Origin: a virus | Length of the DNA stretch: 47,641 nucleotides | IMG/VR virus record: IMGVR_UViG_3300046028_007825 | Span: 1 to 47,641 of that record | Strand: one strand, 5' to 3' | Part shown: in pieces, positions 2,820 through 25,368 of the stretch | Layout of the letters: each line of letters opens with the position of its first letter | How positions within the stretch are numbered: the first letter of the stretch is position 1 | Position numbers and translations under genes: made by a program | Notes under the pieces: generated by a model | The model's input: the letters and a program-made list of their open reading frames with translations, nothing else | Told to the model about the DNA's origin: nothing | The model's database searches: none

Positions 2820-3058
2820 CCAAAATCCCCATAAGCTAATAAATAAATGGATTCGGCTTTAAGTCTTTCAAGTTTGCTTATTTTACCAGTTTTAAAATAA
2901 TTAACTATTATATCCTCTATGTCATCCATATTATGAAATCCTGCTAGAATATTATTACACTCATCTAGCAAAGCGTCATCACTTAAGCTATCTAATTCCA
3001 TATAAAGAGTATCACTCTCAAAACATATATCATTATAGTCTACTAAAGTTTGTTTCAT
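2807..3058 (-). CDS. Acidic hypothetical protein
   Basis: 83 aa, strongly acidic N-terminal two thirds (DYNDICFESD, ELDSLSDDALLDE), mostly helical by pattern. The start overlaps the previous stop as ATGA. It sits between the primase-like gene and the polymerase, so a replication accessory role is possible, but nothing in the sequence identifies it. Confidence 0.6.
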   Translation of the reverse strand: MKQTLVDYNDICFESDTLYMELDSLSDDALLDECNNILAGFHNMDDIEDIIVNYFKTGKISKLERLKAESIYLLAYGDFGWEV

Positions 3059-3282
3059 AATAATTGTTTCTCCAATGATGAAAGTGGAAGAATGAACACA
3101 TCGTCTGTAAAATGCGTATATAAAATTCCTATTGTGTTATCATAGTATCGTATTCTTACTTTAAAGTCATCTACTTCTTCTAATACAATAAACCAAAATG
3201 TACTATCACCGGCATCTTCATTTAAAGAATACCTCTCATTAATTATCAAATTATTTGTTTTTGTCTTTTGCAATAGTACCAT
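3055..3282 (-). CDS. Small beta-rich protein with LSSLEKQLL tail
   Basis: Up to 75 aa. Beta-strand rich centre (FWFIVLEEVDDFKVRIRYYD) and the tail LSSLEKQLL shared by many small proteins of this phage. Start uncertain: ATG 3282 overlaps the primase-like gene by 32 bp without a strong ribosome site, while TTG 3249 lies just past that gene's stop. The stop forms ATGA with the next gene. Function unknown. Confidence 0.6.
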   Translation of the reverse strand: MVLLQKTKTNNLIINERYSLNEDAGDSTFWFIVLEEVDDFKVRIRYYDNTIGILYTHFTDDVFILPLSSLEKQLL

Positions 3283-4105
3283 CTTTTATAGATCTTTTAA
3301 TTTGATACATATCTTTTTTATCTAAATCTTGAGGAGAAATTTTAGACATAACCTCCTCTATTATTGTAGCATCAACACCAGAAAGGGCAAGTGAAAAGAC
3401 ACACGCATTTAATGAATTAATCCATAATCCCGATAATCCAGTATGCGCATTGGTCAAGAAGAATTCAACCGCTTCAGGTATAGTATCCCTTTCCTTGCCA
3501 TATAATAATTTAACTATTTCGGAAAGCTCCTCGGGTACAATGACTTGTGCTTCATTTAAATTGTACTTAGCTTCTATAAAATCTTTAGCTTTTTTAGGAA
3601 TTAGAAACTCACCATCCTGCCAAAATCCATCATCTATCTTAGAAGGGCAGTAATACCTAGCAGTATCGGAACATTGCCTATCAAGTTCTGGGAATTTTTC
3701 AGATAGCCAGTTCCAAGTCTCATCAAAATCCTTTGAATTTAAAATAGTCTTAGCTAATGGAAATACTAGCCTGAACTTATGTAACTCATTAGTATGACTA
3801 GGACTTGGCAGACATAGGCAGGATAATCCAATTTGCTGTATTCTATGCTCAGCTTGTGGAATAGTTAAACCACTGTCTACATCTAAAGTCATAAAATCGG
3901 TAGATATAAAATGCTCATCAAGCCTAGTTCCAGAAAAAATACTGGGACTCCAAGCATAAGATGATATATAAGATATTAGATCTTCTTCATTTATAATATC
4001 AACTACTTTAGGCAAATTAGGAGTAGAGGCAAGGAATGCTTGCTGTATTTTATCTTGTTTATTCTTAGGTAAGAAATTAGCTAAGGGATATATTGATAGT
4101 CTCAT
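3251..4105 (-). CDS. Archaeo-eukaryotic primase-like (PrimPol) protein
   Basis: 284 aa. The N-terminal half has hallmarks of phage/plasmid AEP primases: FMTLDVDSG (acidic metal-binding pair), a conserved serine/histidine stretch near SPSHTNELHKFRLVF, and DRQCSDTARYYCPS matching the late AEP motif. The C-terminal helical part (VEFFLTNAHTGLSG to the end) resembles the primase C-terminal helical domain. It lies immediately upstream of the polymerase block and downstream of the helicase, so primer synthesis is the likely role. Start ATG 4105 overlaps the previous stop (ATGA). A stand-alone VirE-type primase-like domain is the main alternative. Confidence 0.7.
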   Translation of the reverse strand: MRLSIYPLANFLPKNKQDKIQQAFLASTPNLPKVVDIINEEDLISYISSYAWSPSIFSGTRLDEHFISTDFMTLDVDSGLTIPQAEHRIQQIGLSCLCLPSPSHTNELHKFRLVFPLAKTILNSKDFDETWNWLSEKFPELDRQCSDTARYYCPSKIDDGFWQDGEFLIPKKAKDFIEAKYNLNEAQVIVPEELSEIVKLLYGKERDTIPEAVEFFLTNAHTGLSGLWINSLNACVFSLALSGVDATIIEEVMSKISPQDLDKKDMYQIKRSIKDGTIAKDKNK

Positions 4106-4290
4106 AATAATTGTATTTCCAATGATGATAGTTTTACTAATCCCATTTCAAAATTAGACTTATAATACCACGAAGTTTCTCTAAAGATAGATGAATTATA
4201 TTTTATTACAACAAAAACTAATTGATCAGTAACTTCAGTTATTTCAAATATAGCCCAATAATCATTTCTGTATATATCCCCTTTTTTCAC
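4102..4290 (-). CDS. Small KGD-type beta-barrel protein with LSSLEIQLL tail
   Basis: 62 aa, GTG start overlapping the helicase stop (GTGA). Begins KKGDIYRNDYW, like other small SH3-like proteins in the window, followed by alternating strands and the tail KLSSLEIQLL. The tail codons here contain no good Shine-Dalgarno, so the peptide is not explained by an embedded ribosome site. Function unknown. Confidence 0.7.
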   Translation of the reverse strand: MKKGDIYRNDYWAIFEITEVTDQLVFVVIKYNSSIFRETSWYYKSNFEMGLVKLSSLEIQLL

Positions 4291-11339: not shown

Positions 11340-11702
11340 TCATTTTCTCATGGCATTCATCACTTTTTTATAGTAAATAAAACTACTTGGATATTTAATT
11401 TTCCTAGCACCTTTAATTCCAAGATTATAACATATAACCCAAGTGTTATTAGCTTTATGAATACAGTCCTGTTTAGCTTTTTTTAATAACTGAACACCTC
11501 TTTCAATATTGGTACAACTGTTTAGTAATTGTAGTTGGGTCTCTGGAACAAATTGATGTCTAATTTGCATTAATCCAGAATCCCCATGGCTCCCTATAGA
11601 AAATGGATTTTCTCTACTTTCAACTTGTATAATTGCATTTGTTAGGACTGGATTTAATCCATGCATGAGGGAATAGAATAGTACGCATGAGTACATACTC
11701 AT
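11340..11702 (-). CDS. SLT-domain lytic transglycosylase-like protein
   Basis: 120 aa from ATG 11702 (ATGA overlap, GGAG upstream; the longer frame to 11738 is not favoured). An N-terminal hydrophobic stretch (YSCVLFYSLMHG) may be a signal or anchor. IIQVESRENPFS contains the catalytic Glu of family 1 transglycosylases (ES motif), followed by GDSGLMQIR (GLMQ motif) and NNTWVICYNLG (the usual AYNAG position). Cleaves peptidoglycan. Early placement, away from structural genes, suggests lysis or cell-wall remodelling rather than a virion role. Confidence 0.82.
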   Translation of the reverse strand: MSMYSCVLFYSLMHGLNPVLTNAIIQVESRENPFSIGSHGDSGLMQIRHQFVPETQLQLLNSCTNIERGVQLLKKAKQDCIHKANNTWVICYNLGIKGARKIKYPSSFIYYKKVMNAMRK

Positions 11703-11941
11703 AGCAACTCCGATTCTAATCCTGACAATATTCTCCATCCATAAAGATTAAAGCATTCTAACGCTGTTTTAACTTTAATTATATGATGAAACTCATTAGT
11801 AACTGCATCTTCTGAGGAATCTATCCAGATAAAAGTAAATTTATCTTTTGTAAGATCACTACATAAGCCATATACGTTAGGATCTTCCCTAGTGGGTTTA
11901 AATTTCATACCTACAAAAAGATTATCCATATTTATATTCAT
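11699..11941 (-). CDS. Small protein with LSGLESELL tail
   Basis: 80 aa. NLFVGMKFKPTRE then strands (KFTFIWIDSS; HHIIKVKTALE), and the tail ILSGLESELL whose codons GGAGTTGCTATGA form the ribosome site and start overlap of the transglycosylase gene. ATG 11929 is an alternative start. Function unknown. Confidence 0.65.
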   Translation of the reverse strand: MNINMDNLFVGMKFKPTREDPNVYGLCSDLTKDKFTFIWIDSSEDAVTNEFHHIIKVKTALECFNLYGWRILSGLESELL

Positions 11942-15345: not shown

Positions 15346-15494
15346 TTTTTTAATTCGGAGCATTTATATGTAGAATATTTAATAGTATTACTATAATACT
15401 TTCCAATCTTTTCACAATTAGATTTATTTATGAATTTGTATCCATACTTAACCTCACCATGAATCATAGTTATGGTCAAAATCCAAAAAATCAC
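15342..15494 (-). CDS. Small secreted or membrane protein, two cysteines
   Basis: 50 aa, GTG start at 15494 overlapping the previous stop (GTGA) with ATGGAG 6 bp upstream. Hydrophobic N-terminus (FWILTITMI) followed by a polar, Lys/Tyr-rich part with Cys27 and Cys45, suggestive of a periplasmic peptide with a disulfide. Function unknown. Confidence 0.6.
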   Translation of the reverse strand: MIFWILTITMIHGEVKYGYKFINKSNCEKIGKYYSNTIKYSTYKCSELKN

Positions 15495-15727
15495 ATAAGC
15501 TCCATTTCTAAAGAAGTAAGTTTTTGATCTAAAATCTCAGGAAATTTCATAAAATCCCATCTTTGCTCATAGACAACTCCATTTACTAGTGTATATAAAG
15601 CGATATTATAACCAACATAGTGGATTTTCATCACATTACCGACAGTTAATCCATCATTCTCCCAAATTTTATAAAATTCCCCTATCTTTGGTTTTTGAGT
15701 AGCCGCTTTTTTTGAATTCCTTTTCAA
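15491..15727 (-). CDS. Small beta-barrel protein with LTSLEMELM tail
   Basis: 78 aa with TTG start 15727 (TAGGAG 6 bp upstream), overlapping the previous gene by 59 bp. After a basic head comes KIGEFYKIWENDGLTVGNVMKI and NIALYTLVNGVVYEQRW, an SH3-like run of strands, then the tail KLTSLEMELM. Function unknown. Confidence 0.7.
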   Translation of the reverse strand: MKRNSKKAATQKPKIGEFYKIWENDGLTVGNVMKIHYVGYNIALYTLVNGVVYEQRWDFMKFPEILDQKLTSLEMELM

Positions 15728-16188: not shown

Positions 16189-16380
16189 TTATAAAAGTTC
16201 TATTTCCAAATTGGATAATTTTTTTACGTGATAATGCCCACCATATAAATAATAATCCGTATAACCATTAACCATTATTACAAAATAACCATCATCATCA
16301 AAAGCCACAATTTCGCCAGTATGCTTATCGTTATTAACGATATGAGTTACACTTACAAAATCTCCCAAGTCTACGTCCAC
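16189..16380 (-). CDS. LGD-type small beta-barrel protein with LSNLEIELL tail
   Basis: 63 aa, GTG start 16380 inside the end of the preceding gene (GGGAG upstream). DVDLGDFVSVTHIVNNDK then GEIVAFDDDGYFVIMVNG is SH3/KOW-like. The tail is KLSNLEIELL, but the gene ends in TAA and the next gene has its own AGGAG after the stop. Here the tail cannot be a by-product of an embedded ribosome site. Confidence 0.75.
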   Translation of the reverse strand: MDVDLGDFVSVTHIVNNDKHTGEIVAFDDDGYFVIMVNGYTDYYLYGGHYHVKKLSNLEIELL

Positions 16381-16838
16381 TTTGGCTCCCTCTTATCACT
16401 TTCCCATCGTTCTGATAGGTAAAGTCTATAAGCCAATGTTACATCATTTTCATGCGTGAAGTCAACGCCTTTCGTCAAGTTTCTTGCATTGTTTGAAAAA
16501 GGCATTTGCTCCCCTACTGGAATAAGCCTAATATTAACTTCAAAAATAGGGAGAAGTTTAGAGCTTGCATGAACCTTTCCACCTCGTCTAGTATATTCAT
16601 CACATAACGCTCTAAAATGCTCTAGAAGCCATTTATAATTGCCCCTAGTAGTCCTACACCAAACATTAGAAGGGTGGTTTTTATGAGTGATTTTATAAAC
16701 ATCCTCACCAGTATAACCGCATAGGCGCAAAGCACTTGATAGTAATTGAGCAGTCTCTAGACACATTTTATTTACTCGCTTATCATCTAAAAAATTTGCC
16801 GATTCAATAGGACAATTTGAAGTTATAAAAATATTCAT
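16371..16838 (-). CDS. Pyrimidine-dimer glycosylase-like phage protein (tentative)
   Basis: 155 aa. Opens MNIFITSNCPIESANFLDDKRVNKM, then ETAQLLSSALRL, THKNHPSNVWCRTTRGNYKWLLEH and YTRRGGKVHAS. This is a widespread phage family often compared with T4 DenV-type pyrimidine-dimer DNA glycosylases: both share a His/Lys/Arg-rich helical core. Catalysis has not been judged here. Start ATG 16838 (ATGA overlap). Confidence 0.6.
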   Translation of the reverse strand: MNIFITSNCPIESANFLDDKRVNKMCLETAQLLSSALRLCGYTGEDVYKITHKNHPSNVWCRTTRGNYKWLLEHFRALCDEYTRRGGKVHASSKLLPIFEVNIRLIPVGEQMPFSNNARNLTKGVDFTHENDVTLAYRLYLSERWESDKREPKWT

Positions 16839-17032
16839 ATTAGTTCTTTTTCTAAAGTAGAAAGTTTTTGCATTTTAAGCAACGTATTTTTATGTTCAAT
16901 ACAAGTATTTAAATCCCTACCATTTTCTGCCAATAAAGCCCGACATTTAATATAACATGTATCTAATGGAATTGAAATAATTTTATACAAAATCATACCA
17001 TGTTTAAAAATATCTCCCTTTTGAATCTCCAT
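16835..17032 (-). CDS. KGD-type small protein with LSTLEKELI tail
   Basis: 65 aa, start at TAATG overlap. EIQKGDIFKHGMILYKIIS and CYIKCRALLAENG resemble its KGD-type relatives; tail KLSTLEKELI. The tail codons (GAAAAAGAACTAATATGA) contain no AGGAG. Function unknown. Confidence 0.7.
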   Translation of the reverse strand: MEIQKGDIFKHGMILYKIISIPLDTCYIKCRALLAENGRDLNTCIEHKNTLLKMQKLSTLEKELI

Positions 17033-20701: not shown

Positions 20702-21433
20702 TTATGCGATAAGCTTCAAAGCTTCGTTGTAGATACTAGTATTTAAAAGGATATTAGCGTCAACGCCTTTTATCGCTCTTACTTTACTAGTCTTATTCTT
20801 ATCCTCATCCTGTACATAAAAGCCCGTTCTCATCAAATTTTCTTGAATGATATTAAATTGGCTAAATAAATCTTCTCTTTTATCTTCCCACCGCTTCGCT
20901 TCAAAAAGAGGGATAAGTTTATCAGAATATTTATCCCCCATTCTCAATTTTAGGCATGAATCTTGCAAGGCTTTAATTTCGTCACTAGTCAAAATTTTAT
21001 TGCTCATTGCATTAATTCCATCGATTGCTACAGTCCTATAGTCCATCATTTCCTCGATTGAATCGTCAAGCTTTAAAAGCCCATTTTGGGTATGCCTTAC
21101 TTTAATTTTAGGAATTAAGTCACTCCCCACTATCAAACCATTGGAACAAACCATTCGAAAAAAGCCTAGTCGGAAAGTCAACGCGCTTGAACCTTCGTGA
21201 GAATTAATAGCTAATAGTTGAAGTTTCCCTTGACTATTTGAATAGCCAACATCAAAGCGCAAAACATGTTTTTGGAAGCCTAGGCGTTTTTCCTTATCCT
21301 TTCTAATTTTAGACTCCACAACATCAGACAATTTAAATCCCTTATTTTCAAGATTTTTTACTAGACTTTCACTTGAGATAAACCCGAATTTATTAGAGCC
21401 AATGTGAGACGTTTGAGTTAAGCAAATTGACAT
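20702..21433 (-). CDS. DUF932 phage/plasmid-like protein
   Basis: 243 aa. LLAINSHEGSSALTFRLGFFRMVCSNGLIVGSDLIPKIKVRHT is the core DUF932 signature (the FRMVCSNGL block). DUF932 proteins are common on phages and plasmids; their function is unproven. Its own consensus promoter lies upstream and a terminator directly downstream, so it forms a single-gene unit. Confidence 0.85.
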   Translation of the reverse strand: MSICLTQTSHIGSNKFGFISSESLVKNLENKGFKLSDVVESKIRKDKEKRLGFQKHVLRFDVGYSNSQGKLQLLAINSHEGSSALTFRLGFFRMVCSNGLIVGSDLIPKIKVRHTQNGLLKLDDSIEEMMDYRTVAIDGINAMSNKILTSDEIKALQDSCLKLRMGDKYSDKLIPLFEAKRWEDKREDLFSQFNIIQENLMRTGFYVQDEDKNKTSKVRAIKGVDANILLNTSIYNEALKLIA

Positions 21434-22278: not shown

Positions 22279-22313
22279 ATGTTGCCCTCTTTGTTGTTTG
22301 CTTCCTTAGTAAG

Positions 22314-22342
22314 ATTCTACAGGAAAAGAAATAATGCGTCAA
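22314..22342 (-). promoter_or_regulatory. Sigma70-type promoter with TTGACGCAT at -35
   Basis: TTGACG-17 bp-TAGAAT on the minus strand, 36 bp before ATG 22278. Confidence 0.85.
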
Positions 22343-22578
22343 TAATAAAGTGACATCTCTTAACTTTTATATAAACCCCCTTACATTATGAGGATAAGCC
22401 CTCGCACTGGCATTAATTGGGAACGTGAAAAAAAGCATGCCTTGAACGTTTTAAAGCGTTTGAGCCATGTCAGCGCAAGCCCCTGAAATAGCTTGACTCG
22501 AAAACGTGGGATTATGTTTCGAGCGTAACGCCCTTAAAACAGTGACAATTTAGCCATGGTTGATGAAATGAGACTATA

Positions 22579-22594
22579 TGGCACAGACTTTGCA
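22579..22594 (+). promoter_or_regulatory. Sigma54-like -24/-12 element
   Basis: TGGCACAGACTTTGCA: GG and GC separated by exactly 10 bp, full match to TGGCAC-N5-TTGCA. No coding gene follows directly on this strand. Confidence 0.65.
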
Positions 22595-22812
22595 GGGAAT
22601 GAATTGAGTACCTGTAAAGGCATAAAACAAGGTGTCACATAAAGACAGCTTAGTTTCATTGCGCCCGCATATTAATTCCCTGTAAGTATCTGAAAATTGG
22701 AAAGAGGACCAAGCTCAAGCCCAGTCCCCTCGGATGGTATGTTTAAGCTTCCCCAGTACGTTTTGAAGCCCTGATTTGAGCTTACTAGGTCAGCTTGATA
22801 AGGTGTATTAAA

Positions 22813-22902
22813 TCACTGCTCAAAAGCCTTTAAAACAGTATCAGAGCGTGATAATAAGTTTACTAAGGTTAATGTCAGCACTAGTATAATATAAGTTTTC
22901 AT
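22813..22902 (-). CDS. 29-aa hydrophobic peptide
   Basis: ATG 22902, AGAGGGG 6-7 bp upstream. KTYIILVLTLTLVNLLS forms one membrane span or signal, followed by RSDTVLKAFEQ. The closest upstream promoter-like element on this strand is the sigma54-type site at 23024-23039, about 110 bp away. Too short to assign. Confidence 0.5.
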   Translation of the reverse strand: MKTYIILVLTLTLVNLLSRSDTVLKAFEQ

Positions 22903-23005
22903 CTAATCCCCTCTTAAAACAATATTCTCACACTATGCATCATAATGCAATAGCCAAACGAAATAAATATTTGTCAAGCGGTTACTCATAAATTCGTAAC
23001 TGGTA

Positions 23006-23039
23006 AGGCCTCAATATTGCACTAGCAAAGCATGTGCCA
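23006..23039. promoter_or_regulatory. Facing pair of sigma54-like elements
   Basis: Plus-strand AGGCCTCAATATTGCA (weak, 23006-23021) and minus-strand TGGCACATGCTTTGCT (full consensus, 23024-23039) face each other with 2 bp between their -12 ends. The minus element could drive the 29-aa peptide gene. Confidence 0.6.
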
Positions 23040-23068
23040 ATTGGAAGATCCCCCCCCCTAAAGAAACA

Positions 23069-23101
23069 TGGCATGAGTTTTGCTTATGCAAAGCCAACAT
23101 C
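23069..23101. promoter_or_regulatory. Sigma54-like element with degenerate facing partner
   Basis: Plus-strand TGGCATGAGTTTTGCT (23069-23084), 2 bp gap, then minus-strand TGCAAAG half-site whose -24 GG is lost or shifted by one base. Confidence 0.5.
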
Positions 23102-23130
23102 CAGCGTATATTCCAGCTTAGAAAATGTTT

Positions 23131-23146
23131 TGGCATGATCTTTGCG
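23131..23146 (+). promoter_or_regulatory. Sigma54-like element
   Basis: TGGCATGATCTTTGCG with GG-N10-GC. Followed 27 bp later by TACAAT and ATGAGGGTAAG (23173-23187), a possible second start region. No partner site. Confidence 0.55.
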
Positions 23147-23263
23147 TTATATACAGCTTAATTCTTTTTTGCTACAATGAGGGTAAGACAAGCGCAAAAG
23201 GGCGAGCTTGAAAAATAAGCCCAATAGTAATCATGATTAGGGAAGGAGCGAGCTTAAAAAAAT

Positions 23264-23297
23264 AGGCACAGTTATTGCATCTGCAAGCCCCATGCCA
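23264..23297. promoter_or_regulatory. Facing pair of sigma54-like elements
   Basis: Plus-strand AGGCACAGTTATTGCA (23264-23279) and minus-strand TGGCATGGGGCTTGCA (23282-23297), 2 bp apart; the centre is the palindrome TTGCATCTGCAA. Their predicted start points lie inside each other's element, which is odd for two productive promoters. Confidence 0.65.
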
Positions 23298-23302
23298 AGC
23301 CA

Positions 23303-23322
23303 AAAAAACTCCCCGAAGGGAG
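23303..23322 (-). terminator. Intrinsic terminator with UUCG loop
   Basis: CTCCC-TTCG-GGGAG followed by TTTTTTT on the minus strand, 18 bp after the stop of the 84-aa gene. Confidence 0.9.
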
Positions 23323-23339
23323 CTTAGCGACTTGGAGAG

Positions 23340-23594
23340 TTATAAGATGTTGACTGTAGTGGCTGCTGCTTTAAGCATGTTGGGCTTTAGAATGCAGTCG
23401 GTTAACATTTGAAGTTGACCATTATCCTCAACGCTTAGACCGAAGTGGTTGAAAAGCATGTCATTGACTAGAGTAGTTTCGTCCCCCTTCCATCCCATGT
23501 CATTCAGCTCATAGTCAAGGTCTGAAAACAATGCCACGAACTCCCTTTGTTGTTTCTTGTTAAGCATTCTAAGTATTTGTAATAAGTAAATCAT
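23340..23594 (-). CDS. 84-aa helical hypothetical protein
   Basis: Start ATG 23594 chosen (ATGGAG 7 bp upstream) over a TTG at 23636. IYLLQILRMLNKKQQREFVALFSDLDYEL, then ETTLVNDMLFNHFG and a hydrophobic helix at the end. Possibly all-alpha. The last gene before the terminator. Function unknown. Confidence 0.65.
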   Translation of the reverse strand: MIYLLQILRMLNKKQQREFVALFSDLDYELNDMGWKGDETTLVNDMLFNHFGLSVEDNGQLQMLTDCILKPNMLKAAATTVNIL

Positions 23595-23645
23595 ATGGCT
23601 CCATTTGTTGTGTTGTCGTATGCTATAGCGTGTCAAGATAAAAGG

Positions 23646-23849
23646 CTATCTTAGCCTCTCTCCTTCAATGTCAGTTTCAGAGCTTGTCCGAAGATAGTGA
23701 AGCTCTTTGTGCTTAGTGCAGTACCCAAGCTCGACCGACACTGCCTGATCATTTATCCGCACGTCTTGCTTAATCCATCTGTACCCTCTCGGAACCTTGT
23801 CTTCAGTAAGTGATAGGCTTAAATCATTGCATACATTATAAAGCTTCAT
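23646..23849 (-). CDS. 67-aa hypothetical protein
   Basis: ATG 23849 with AAGGGGATAAC upstream. NDLSLSLTEDKVPRGYRWIKQDVRIND then strands VSVELGYCTKHKELHYLR. Two consensus promoters lie upstream. Function unknown. Confidence 0.65.
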   Translation of the reverse strand: MKLYNVCNDLSLSLTEDKVPRGYRWIKQDVRINDQAVSVELGYCTKHKELHYLRTSSETDIEGERLR

Positions 23850-23887
23850 GTTATCCCCTTGTTGCGTTGTGTTATTTGCTTACTAAG

Positions 23888-23916
23888 ATACTACACCCAT
23901 TCGATGTTTCTGTCAA
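23888..23916 (-). promoter_or_regulatory. Sigma70-type promoter
   Basis: TTGACA-17 bp-TAGTAT on the minus strand, first of two in tandem before the 67-aa gene. Confidence 0.85.
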
Positions 23917-23935
23917 CTTTCCCCTTGATGTCCTC

Positions 23936-23964
23936 ATCTTAGCATTTTTGATTCAAAGTGTCAA
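23936..23964 (-). promoter_or_regulatory. Sigma70-type promoter, tandem upstream copy
   Basis: TTGACA-17 bp-TAAGAT on the minus strand, 48 bp upstream of the promoter at 23888-23916. Confidence 0.85.
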
Positions 23965-24017
23965 ATTATGCTGCAAGTCCCCGTCATTATTGACTTTGCT
24001 GCGAATCGTTACACCTA

Positions 24018-24030
24018 TGGTATGATGAGG
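24018..24030 (+). promoter_or_regulatory. Extended -10 promoter of the plus-strand gene
   Basis: TGGTATGAT (extended -10) followed by GAGGGTAAG. The -35 region is poor; TTGACT at 23990 is 25 bp away. The following ATGAGGGTAAG sequence recurs at 22388 (A for G) and 23178. Confidence 0.55.
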
Positions 24031-24055
24031 GTAAGAAACAAACAAGGGGAAAACA

Positions 24056-24277
24056 ATGGTACGATTTAAAACAAAGGCAGACAACAAAGGTAAGGAAGGG
24101 AATGAAGTTTATCACATTGTAGCTACAAGGTCACTGGATGTCATACAAGATCACTGGACTAAGACTAATACCATCCTAGGCGTTATGATACGAAAAACTT
24201 ATAAGACACTAAACGGAGCTACTAAGGGAGTCAAGGAAGGCGAGACCATTCTACTAGAGAAACCAATGGGAATCTAA
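24056..24277 (+). CDS. Lone plus-strand basic protein in the early region
   Basis: 73 aa, AAGGGG 7 bp before ATG. RFKTKADNKGKEGNEVYHIVATRSL, then TKTNTILGVMIRKTYKTLNGAT and EGETILLEKP: a small beta-rich basic protein. It is the only convincing plus-strand gene between 1 and 27 kb and lies between tandem minus promoters and a sigma54-like cluster. Function unknown. Confidence 0.65.
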   Translation: MVRFKTKADNKGKEGNEVYHIVATRSLDVIQDHWTKTNTILGVMIRKTYKTLNGATKGVKEGETILLEKPMGI

Positions 24278-24300
24278 TAGCAATAATCATGCCAAGGACT

Positions 24301-24334
24301 AGGCATGACCTTTGCATCTGCAAGGCCTGTGCCA
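24301..24334. promoter_or_regulatory. Facing pair of sigma54-like elements
   Basis: Plus-strand AGGCATGACCTTTGCA (24301-24316) and minus-strand TGGCACAGGCCTTGCA (24319-24334), 2 bp apart, with the same TTGCATCTGCAA centre as the pair at 23264-23297. Lies between the 3' ends of two converging genes. Confidence 0.65.
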
Positions 24335-24344
24335 AGCCAGTGCA

Positions 24345-24360
24345 TGCAAGGCCGGTGCCA
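24345..24360 (-). promoter_or_regulatory. Sigma54-like element, tandem copy
   Basis: Minus-strand TGGCACCGGCCTTGCA, full consensus, 26 bp from the preceding minus element (24319). Confidence 0.65.
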
Positions 24361-24369
24361 AGTGGCCCA

Positions 24370-24385
24370 TGCAAGAACGATGCCA
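24370..24385 (-). promoter_or_regulatory. Sigma54-like element, tandem copy
   Basis: Minus-strand TGGCATCGTTCTTGCA, 25 bp from the copy at 24345. The three minus-strand copies fall on a 25-26 bp period. Confidence 0.6.
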
Positions 24386-24413: not shown

Positions 24414-24429
24414 GGGGGGGGGGGGGGGG
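24414..24429 (+). repeat. G16 homopolymer
   Basis: Sixteen consecutive G, then T and GAGGGGG, in an AT-rich genome, directly beside the tandem sigma54-like sites. May vary in length between virions or form a G-quadruplex; assembly length uncertain. Confidence 0.9.
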
Positions 24430-24501
24430 TGAGGGGGATGTGAGTGTGGAGTTGAAGGTGAATATGCTCCACAATATATTTCCCACTTTATAGTTAGACT
24501 G

Positions 24502-24702
24502 TCACAATAATTCTTTGATCAACGCAGAGGTAGCTACTTGCACAAGCGTTGGTTGGCTGCTATGCTCATCCCACGTTACAATAGCTTTGAACCCTCTTGA
24601 CATGTCCATGTCGTAACCACTAGGAAAAACGCTTCGCTCATGCCAGTCTTTTAATAGCTTAGCATATTCTTCTCCAGTTACCCATTTAATCTTATAATTC
24701 AT
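24502..24702 (-). CDS. Small protein with SALIKELL tail
   Basis: 66 aa; start ATGA overlap. NYKIKWVTGEEYAKLLKDWHERS then KAIVTWDEHSSQPTLVQVATSALIKELL. More alpha/beta than its barrel-like neighbours. Last gene of the 24.5-27.2 kb operon; nothing coding follows, so its tail does not serve a downstream gene. Confidence 0.7.
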   Translation of the reverse strand: MNYKIKWVTGEEYAKLLKDWHERSVFPSGYDMDMSRGFKAIVTWDEHSSQPTLVQVATSALIKELL

Positions 24703-24932
24703 AATAACTCCTGCTCTAAGCTACTGAGTTCAGTAATAGTCCAGCAATCTGGCACAAACCCAGATAGTCTATAACCGGGATGCCTTACAACTTCGTAAGA
24801 TACTAATCCTCCAAACTCGGCATAGGTATTAACCTTACTAGAGATTCTTTTAACAATTATACTAGATTTAAAGCTTGTTGTGCTATCAGAACCAGTATAC
24901 CAAGTAGCTTTATACCAGACATCTATTTTCAT
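24699..24932 (-). CDS. Small protein with LSSLEQELL tail
   Basis: 77 aa. KIDVWYKATWYTGSDSTTSF, strands SIIVKRISSK and LVSYEVVRHPGYRL, then CWTITELSSLEQELL. The tail codons carry GAGCAGGAG and end ATGA with the next gene. Its VWYKATW opening resembles RWYKVWH in 25171-25368, so these look like paralogues. Confidence 0.7.
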   Translation of the reverse strand: MKIDVWYKATWYTGSDSTTSFKSSIIVKRISSKVNTYAEFGGLVSYEVVRHPGYRLSGFVPDCWTITELSSLEQELL

Positions 24933-25174
24933 AGTAGTTCAACTTCTAAACTGCTAAGTTCTTCTATTATTTCCCAATCATCTGGGTATAAGTGCATGAA
25001 ATATGATTGGTTTAGTAGGTCGTCTCCCATTTTAATAATCTGGGCTTTATAGTAATATTCGTTATGTGAGTATATCATAGGCTCTTGTACAATTTTAATA
25101 GTATAGATTACTTCATCCCATGGGTCGTATACGGAATTACCCAACTTATATAACTTACCAAGCTTTAGCGTCAC
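24929..25174 (-). CDS. Small protein with LSSLEVELL tail
   Basis: 81 aa, GTG start 25174 (GTGA overlap). LKLGKLYKLGNSVYDPWDEV then VIYTIKIVQEP and YYKAQIIKMG, with DDWEIIEELSSLEVELL. Tail codons GAAGTTGAACTACTATGA have no strong ribosome site, unlike its neighbours, yet the peptide is kept. Confidence 0.7.
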   Translation of the reverse strand: MTLKLGKLYKLGNSVYDPWDEVIYTIKIVQEPMIYSHNEYYYKAQIIKMGDDLLNQSYFMHLYPDDWEIIEELSSLEVELL

Positions 25175-25368
25175 AGTAGTTCCTGCTCTAAACTACTTAA
25201 TTCCATTACATTATCACAGTATTCTTTAGATATGACCGTGGTAGTTATTTTAGAAATTTGTTTATCATAGATATATACTAAGAAAGCCGCAGGGCCATAG
25301 CGTTCATATGGCTTTACATAGTACTCTCCATGGTAGTGCCATACCTTATACCAGCGATTAAGCTTCAT
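25171..25368 (-). CDS. Small protein with LSSLEQELL tail
   Basis: 65 aa. KLNRWYKVWHYHGEYYVKPYE, AAFLVYIYDKQISKITTTVIS, then VMELSSLEQELL. Same layout as the two genes that follow. Function unknown. Confidence 0.7.
   Translation of the reverse strand: MKLNRWYKVWHYHGEYYVKPYERYGPAAFLVYIYDKQISKITTTVISKEYCDNVMELSSLEQELL

Follow-up and report, generated by a model that had tools for sequence, protein, structure and literature searches.

Face-to-face and tandem sigma54-type sites in non-coding arrays of many phages

The window, by which we mean the whole stretch of DNA analysed here, is a virus record of 47,641 bases in which small minus-strand genes flank a gene-poor stretch carrying an array of short sigma54-type sites. 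The entire window holds 12 exact matches to WGGCAY-N5-TTGC against 0.25 expected from dinucleotide shuffles, and none of 100 shuffles reached 12. Eleven of the matches lie within 22579–24385, six of them on the minus strand, and the twelfth is at 20952; the bound on uniform placement as the cause of this clustering is 8e-13, and the reversed pattern, used as a control, had no match in the window. These counts confirm the cluster of sigma54-like promoter elements proposed in a preliminary description of the same DNA. A comparable density of sites across the genome, which would speak against such a cluster, is not seen, because 11 of the 12 sites fall within 1.8 kb. Full matches to TGGCAC-N5-TTGCW number four and stand exactly where that description had placed them, at 22579 (+), 23024 (−), 24319 (−) and 24345 (−), and within TGGCAY-N5-TTGC the GG and GC dinucleotides of the window sites are 10 bp apart. 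The left half of the array occupies a gene-free stretch (22300–23330) without any stop-to-stop frame longer than 53 aa, and the earlier remark that most elements do not precede genes is supported. The arrays are non-coding and are not conventional promoters of genes.

The array starts with a single plus-strand site (TGGCACAGACTTTGC, 22579–22593), which is identical in the relatives G001 and G004. A face-to-face pair with a 4-bp gap follows at 23006–23039, composed of a degenerate left arm (AGGCCTCAATATTGC, plus strand) and a full right arm (TGGCACATGCTTTGC, minus strand, 23025–23039); the weaker copy suspected earlier at 23006 is real and is this left arm. Next come a plus-strand site (TGGCATGAGTTTTGC, 23069–23083) trailed by the remnant of a facing arm (GCAAAGCCA), a single plus-strand site (TGGCATGATCTTTGC, 23131–23145), whose core is kept and whose spacer is changed in G004, and a second face-to-face pair with a 4-bp gap (AGGCACAGTTATTGC, plus strand, and TGGCATGGGGCTTGC, minus strand; 23264–23297), the cores of which are identical in G001 while the N4 spacer is changed. 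Further along, a minus-strand site (TGGCATGATTATTGC, 24280–24294) stands back to back, at a centre distance of 21 bp, with a third face-to-face pair, again with a 4-bp gap (AGGCATGACCTTTGC, plus strand, and TGGCACAGGCCTTGC, minus strand; 24301–24334). The minus arm of that pair opens a tandem of three minus-strand sites (24320–24334, 24346–24360 and 24371–24385; 24320–24385 overall) with steps of 26 and 25 bp. In all three face-to-face sets (23006/23025, 23264/23283 and 24301/24320) the −12 ends are 4 bp apart, and the pairs of the window follow the pattern TTGGCAY-N5-TTGC-N4-GCAA-N5-RTGCCAA. The informative feature of the cluster is this arrangement in pairs and tandems, not the bare number of sites. 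The outlying plus-strand site (AGGCATGAATCTTGC, 20952–20966) lies inside a DUF932 gene and is kept by near relatives; it may be coincidental.

Directly adjoining the array lies a block (24415–24514) that includes a poly-G tract as well as a short inverted repeat and is conserved at 73–89% identity in relatives (G003, G004, G005, G007, G010 in part, G011 and L035 in part). The close relative G001 keeps both full pairs but has unrelated sequence in place of the region between them (23640–24260); this is a swapped gene cassette between arrays.

The extended sigma54 consensus reads mrNrYTGGCACG-N4-TTGCW. We compared with it the positions that had been left free by the search, using the 334 arms of 167 paired sites. 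T precedes GGCA in 90% of the arms and a pyrimidine (Y) precedes that T in 74%; GGCAY is followed by a purine (R) in 94%, and TTGC is followed by W in 86%; some loci behind this last figure derive from a scan in which that position was set to A. Since the free positions reproduce the sigma54 consensus, the paired sites are, judged by their sequence, very probably real host sigma54 sites. Comparison of the window with its 82-kb relative G001 revealed changes at 0 of 132 core positions versus 6 of 48 spacer positions (Fisher p = 0.0003), as purifying selection on the core would have it. The spacers of the two arms of a pair are less alike than those of shuffled pairs (0.26 versus 0.34), which excludes a hairpin. 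A structured RNA was thus rejected as the function of the pairs: the spacers are not complementary, an Rfam search gave no match, and no stable fold stands beside the pair of the Pseudomonas phages described below.

A scan of IMG/VR with the palindromic pair pattern returned 56 stretches, from contigs that are mostly uncultured, versus none with the reversed pair pattern. An origin by chance or from composition, for which nothing speaks beyond the shortness of the motif, is extremely improbable, and we rejected it on the shuffles, the reversed-pattern controls in both the window and IMG/VR, and the conservation of the cores. When the gap between the arms was left free (0 to 24 bp allowed), nearly all convincing pairs had gaps of 3–7 bp, and a strict helical-phase rule for wide gaps was not seen. 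Each of two stricter scans, in which 21 bases were specified, gave at least 120 matches, and the collected set comprises at least 292 distinct strict pairs in at least 217 contigs. The gaps among these strict pairs are most often 4 bp (122), followed by 5 (62), 7 (52), 6 (29) and 3 bp (18), and the gap sequence is 73% AT. Relatives chosen by terminase or DUF932 homology, and not by the motif, contained 66 sites versus 3 control matches, with pairs present in G004, G006, G007 and G011.

Bacterial chromosomes present a different picture. In 257 Gb of bacterial and archaeal genomes we found 64 stretches with the loose pattern, where about 15 are expected by chance on our own estimate, and 2 strict pairs; the loose matches mostly lack the extra sigma54 positions. 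The only bacterial-genome match that is viral-like throughout, a 4.3-kb Verrucomicrobiia contig (L163, JAAZXX010000390.1) with three viral-type pairs, comes from a bacterial bin and is probably a phage contig. Because pairs occur in hundreds of phages and hardly ever in bacterial chromosomes, viruses seem to use the host sigma54 RNA polymerase in a previously undescribed way. The preliminary description had missed the face-to-face pairs, their spread over hundreds of phage contigs and their near absence from bacterial chromosomes. No cultured phage turned up as a direct relative, at the DNA level, of the window or of either of two further arrays; the nearest cultured terminase to that of the window phage is from a Silvanigrella phage (29%), and the nearest polymerases are those of Flavobacterium phages (44%). 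The Pelagibacter phages tested had no sites, as would be expected if Pelagibacter lacks sigma54.

The spacing of sites is far from uniform. Across 801 sites in 2.3 Mb, facing sites prefer a centre distance of 17–21 bp, tandem sites 26–28 bp and back-to-back sites 24–26 bp, with weaker peaks near 36 bp. One genome, G030, carries a perfect 26-bp tandem array of at least six sigma54-type sites, with the same step as the tandem of the window. This array is present at both ends of the contig (L317 at the end, L315 at the start), which suggests that the genome is circular or terminally redundant and that the full array is longer. Pairs fall inside an open frame of at least 150 aa in 11% of cases versus 48% of random positions. 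Of 126 pair clusters, 48 have a run of at least six G or C no more than 150 bp away, versus 8.7% of random non-coding positions in these contigs; the window has a C9 run near 23050 and a G16 run near 24414.

A small terminase-like gene, recognised by where it lies and by the terminase next to it, with no match in PHROGs, is common to 26 contigs with arrays, which form a marine family. Their arrays are intergenic and contain 2–9 sites, mostly 230–580 bp upstream of this gene and 600–930 bp in a few contigs, and the far side of the array is usually occupied by minus-strand replication genes. The array is not the promoter of the terminase gene, because a separate sigma70-like promoter stands just before that gene (16–274 bp, in the 7 contigs examined). 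An ordinary terminase-operon promoter is, thus, unlikely, and the sigma54 sites closest to the gene are often directed away from it. The terminase link holds for this subset, and a single gene common to all carriers was rejected; likewise, a pac or terminase-binding array would account for the adjacency in the 26 contigs, and not for the window or for the Pseudomonas phage PAK_P4. More generally, the sites could be bound by a different protein, such as a factor for replication, partition or packaging, whose target happens to resemble the sigma54 consensus. The mixture of tandem and inverted repeats does resemble iterons, centromeres or pac arrays, and the small terminase gene comes after the array in the 26 contigs. 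We consider this unlikely, however, as the same extended consensus, including its weak sigma54 positions, recurs across unrelated phages, the window and PAK_P4 have their arrays away from the terminase, and no protein resembling the sigma54 DNA-binding domain is encoded in 49 pair-bearing records.

The position of the marine-family arrays upstream of the terminase promoter and, in at least one of these contigs, between divergent sigma70-like promoters would also suit a roadblock or insulator, in which Esigma54, held stably in closed complexes, keeps adjacent sigma70 transcription units apart at divergent or early/late junctions; pairs would work in both directions. Such a role is very unlikely, given that no such effect was observed at chromosomal intragenic sigma54 sites of E. 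coli (PMC4591121) and that the window array lies among minus-strand genes, away from the divergence near 27.2 kb.

Across 49 pair-bearing records we counted several hundred TGGCAYR-N4-TTGC sites, up to 18 per genome, versus 4 in the control. In the same 49 records, some of them incomplete and all of them other than the window record, neither a sigma54 activator domain (PF00158) nor a sigma54 DNA-binding domain (PF04552) was found, and we rejected a phage-encoded activator or sigma54-like protein on these grounds. The earlier remark that no enhancer-binding protein gene is visible in the window, which was screened by annotation, agrees with this. The array would depend on a host activator, because the phage brings none.

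Paired sites are also present in cultured phages of Pseudomonas. In the Pakpunaviruses of P. aeruginosa a region free of genes holds one pair and one single site, and the pair, together with an adjoining block of ~55 bp, is found in phages of P. putida and P. syringae, where the spacers of the pair vary; about 180 cultured Pseudomonas phage records carry the pair or the block. The block itself (CTGTTTGTCTCCGGTGCTCGG...CTGCGTTGCCCGC) occurs in 184 Pseudomonas phage records (for example, L305, L306, L307, L308 and L345–L348), has no Rfam match and no stable fold, and is kept where the pair decays: one arm is lost in CHA_P1, and the whole pair in phiPsa315. No tRNA was found between the Pseudomonas sites.

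Published RNA-seq of PAK_P4 gives a view of transcription at such sites. The strict sites of this phage number exactly 7 and form two clusters; all of them lie inside the antisense RNAs as16 (55650–55850) and as17 (67500–68700; coordinates rounded), which are the only 2 of the 17 RNA-seq antisense RNAs of PAK_P4 that lie outside the structural module. The chance that both clusters fall in antisense RNAs is about 0.0075 genome-wide and 0.0004 outside the structural module. As all 7 sites are covered by these RNA-seq-defined transcripts, the clusters appear to be transcribed, and transcription across both is supported by this one outside data set. The annotated 5′ end of as16 (55850, rounded) is at most 20 nt from the start predicted from the pair; the start of as17 is not at a minus-strand site. 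Both RNAs were annotated without reference to sigma54, and as16 is listed without a determined function (PMC12197685). In PAK_P3 (Nankokuvirus) no antisense RNA is annotated at the corresponding block itself.

Our preferred, still tentative, reading is that the array consists of sites for the host sigma54 (RpoN) polymerase that act as bidirectional, host-activated starts of short non-coding RNAs, with titration of the polymerase as a by-product. The host sigma54 RNA polymerase would bind the sites and, where these face each other, could face either way across a single AT-rich region of opening common to both sites, waiting there as a closed complex. A host enhancer-binding protein active during infection would then trigger short non-coding or antisense transcripts running outward both ways, with divergent starts predicted 19 bp apart for the 4-bp gap (23 minus gap), and the array, when present in many copies, would also tie up sigma54 polymerase. 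Three points incline us towards bidirectional transcription: the transcription seen across the PAK_P4 clusters, the AT-rich gap and the predicted distance of 19 bp between the starts. For the window phage itself we infer sigma54 binding, dependence on a host activator, firing in both directions and a benefit to the phage. The proposed arrangement resembles the bidirectional sigma70 promoters of E. coli (Warman et al.), where symmetric DNA lets the polymerase bind in two exclusive orientations and divergent starts are most often 18 bp apart (PMC12825309). The sigma70 promoters, however, share a −10 element, whereas the phage arrays place two complete sigma54 sites face to face. Several observations weigh against bidirectional starts: it is difficult to picture tandem copies every 26 bp, or nine sites within 200 bp, as separate promoters; a conserved structured RNA product was looked for and not found; an arm in CHA_P1 and the pair in phiPsa315 are lost while the block is kept; and the start of as17 is away from a minus-strand site, with the PAK_P4 coordinates rounded.

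The strongest rival to bidirectional starts is a decoy, in which the array sequesters host sigma54 polymerase as inert closed complexes, sigma54-dependent host responses are shut down and transcription is a side effect. Near-perfect consensus sites, packed in dense gene-free arrays with up to 18 sites per genome, in 26-bp tandem copies and in both orientations, would suit a sink, as would the absence of activator genes and the behaviour of relatives, which vary in the number and order of sites and keep their place. Phages are able to inhibit Esigma54 by other means, through the proteins T7 Ocr and Xp10 P7 (PMC7064336, PMC5053324). Facing sites 4 bp apart, however, should exclude each other and so waste sink capacity, the PAK_P4 clusters are transcribed, and 7 sites would need a high genome copy number to titrate the polymerase. 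Moreover, the host rtcA/rtcB operon, which is controlled by sigma54 and RtcR in enterobacteria, rises nearly 80-fold during infection by PAK_P3, a phage related to PAK_P4 (PMC4933390); this point is weakened in that PAK_P3 belongs to the genus of CHA_P1, the sampled relative with one arm lost. A decoy is possible, then, if doubtful, and we hold it slightly more doubtful still that many unrelated phages carry facing-site DNA decoys that silence host sigma54 responses without any phage protein. Small RNAs or leader transcripts, on the one hand, and a decoy, on the other, had both been suggested in the preliminary description, and both remain alive: the antisense RNAs of PAK_P4 favour the former, and the dense, activator-less arrays the latter.

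Use of sigma54 by phages has been described as rare, the cited case being the P. aeruginosa phage YuA (NC_010116), whose development reportedly has a strict requirement for host sigma54 (PMC5053324). The YuA record annotates three −24/−12 promoters with high reporter activity. YuA thus shares with the phages described here a reliance on host sigma54, but its promoters stand singly at structural genes, and it has no strict-consensus sites, pairs or arrays. In E. coli, Esigma54 can sit transcriptionally inactive at intragenic sites (PMC4591121); those sites are single and intragenic, unlike the phage sites, which are non-coding and paired or in tandem. In the open-licence full-text papers searched, phage sigma54 sites in pairs or arrays are nowhere described. 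The element is present in hundreds of phage contigs, though sigma54 use by phages is considered rare. If the interpretations hold, these phages would either have non-coding RNAs run by host sigma54 and stress activators or carry a DNA sponge for a sigma factor; either would be new, and the decoy would amount to a nucleic-acid counter-measure against a sigma factor.

Apart from the array, many small and otherwise unrelated proteins of the window share a C-terminal motif of the approximate form LSSLExELL. Examples in the window, all five on the minus strand, are 24502–25368, 16189–17032, 15491–15727, 11699–11941 and 3055–4290, and the form LxxEL[LIMTFV] is found at the C-terminal end of 18 of 210 short window frames versus 2 of 11,921 internal positions. 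C-terminal motifs of the LSSLExELL type are also present in some relatives (L032, L034 and L036).
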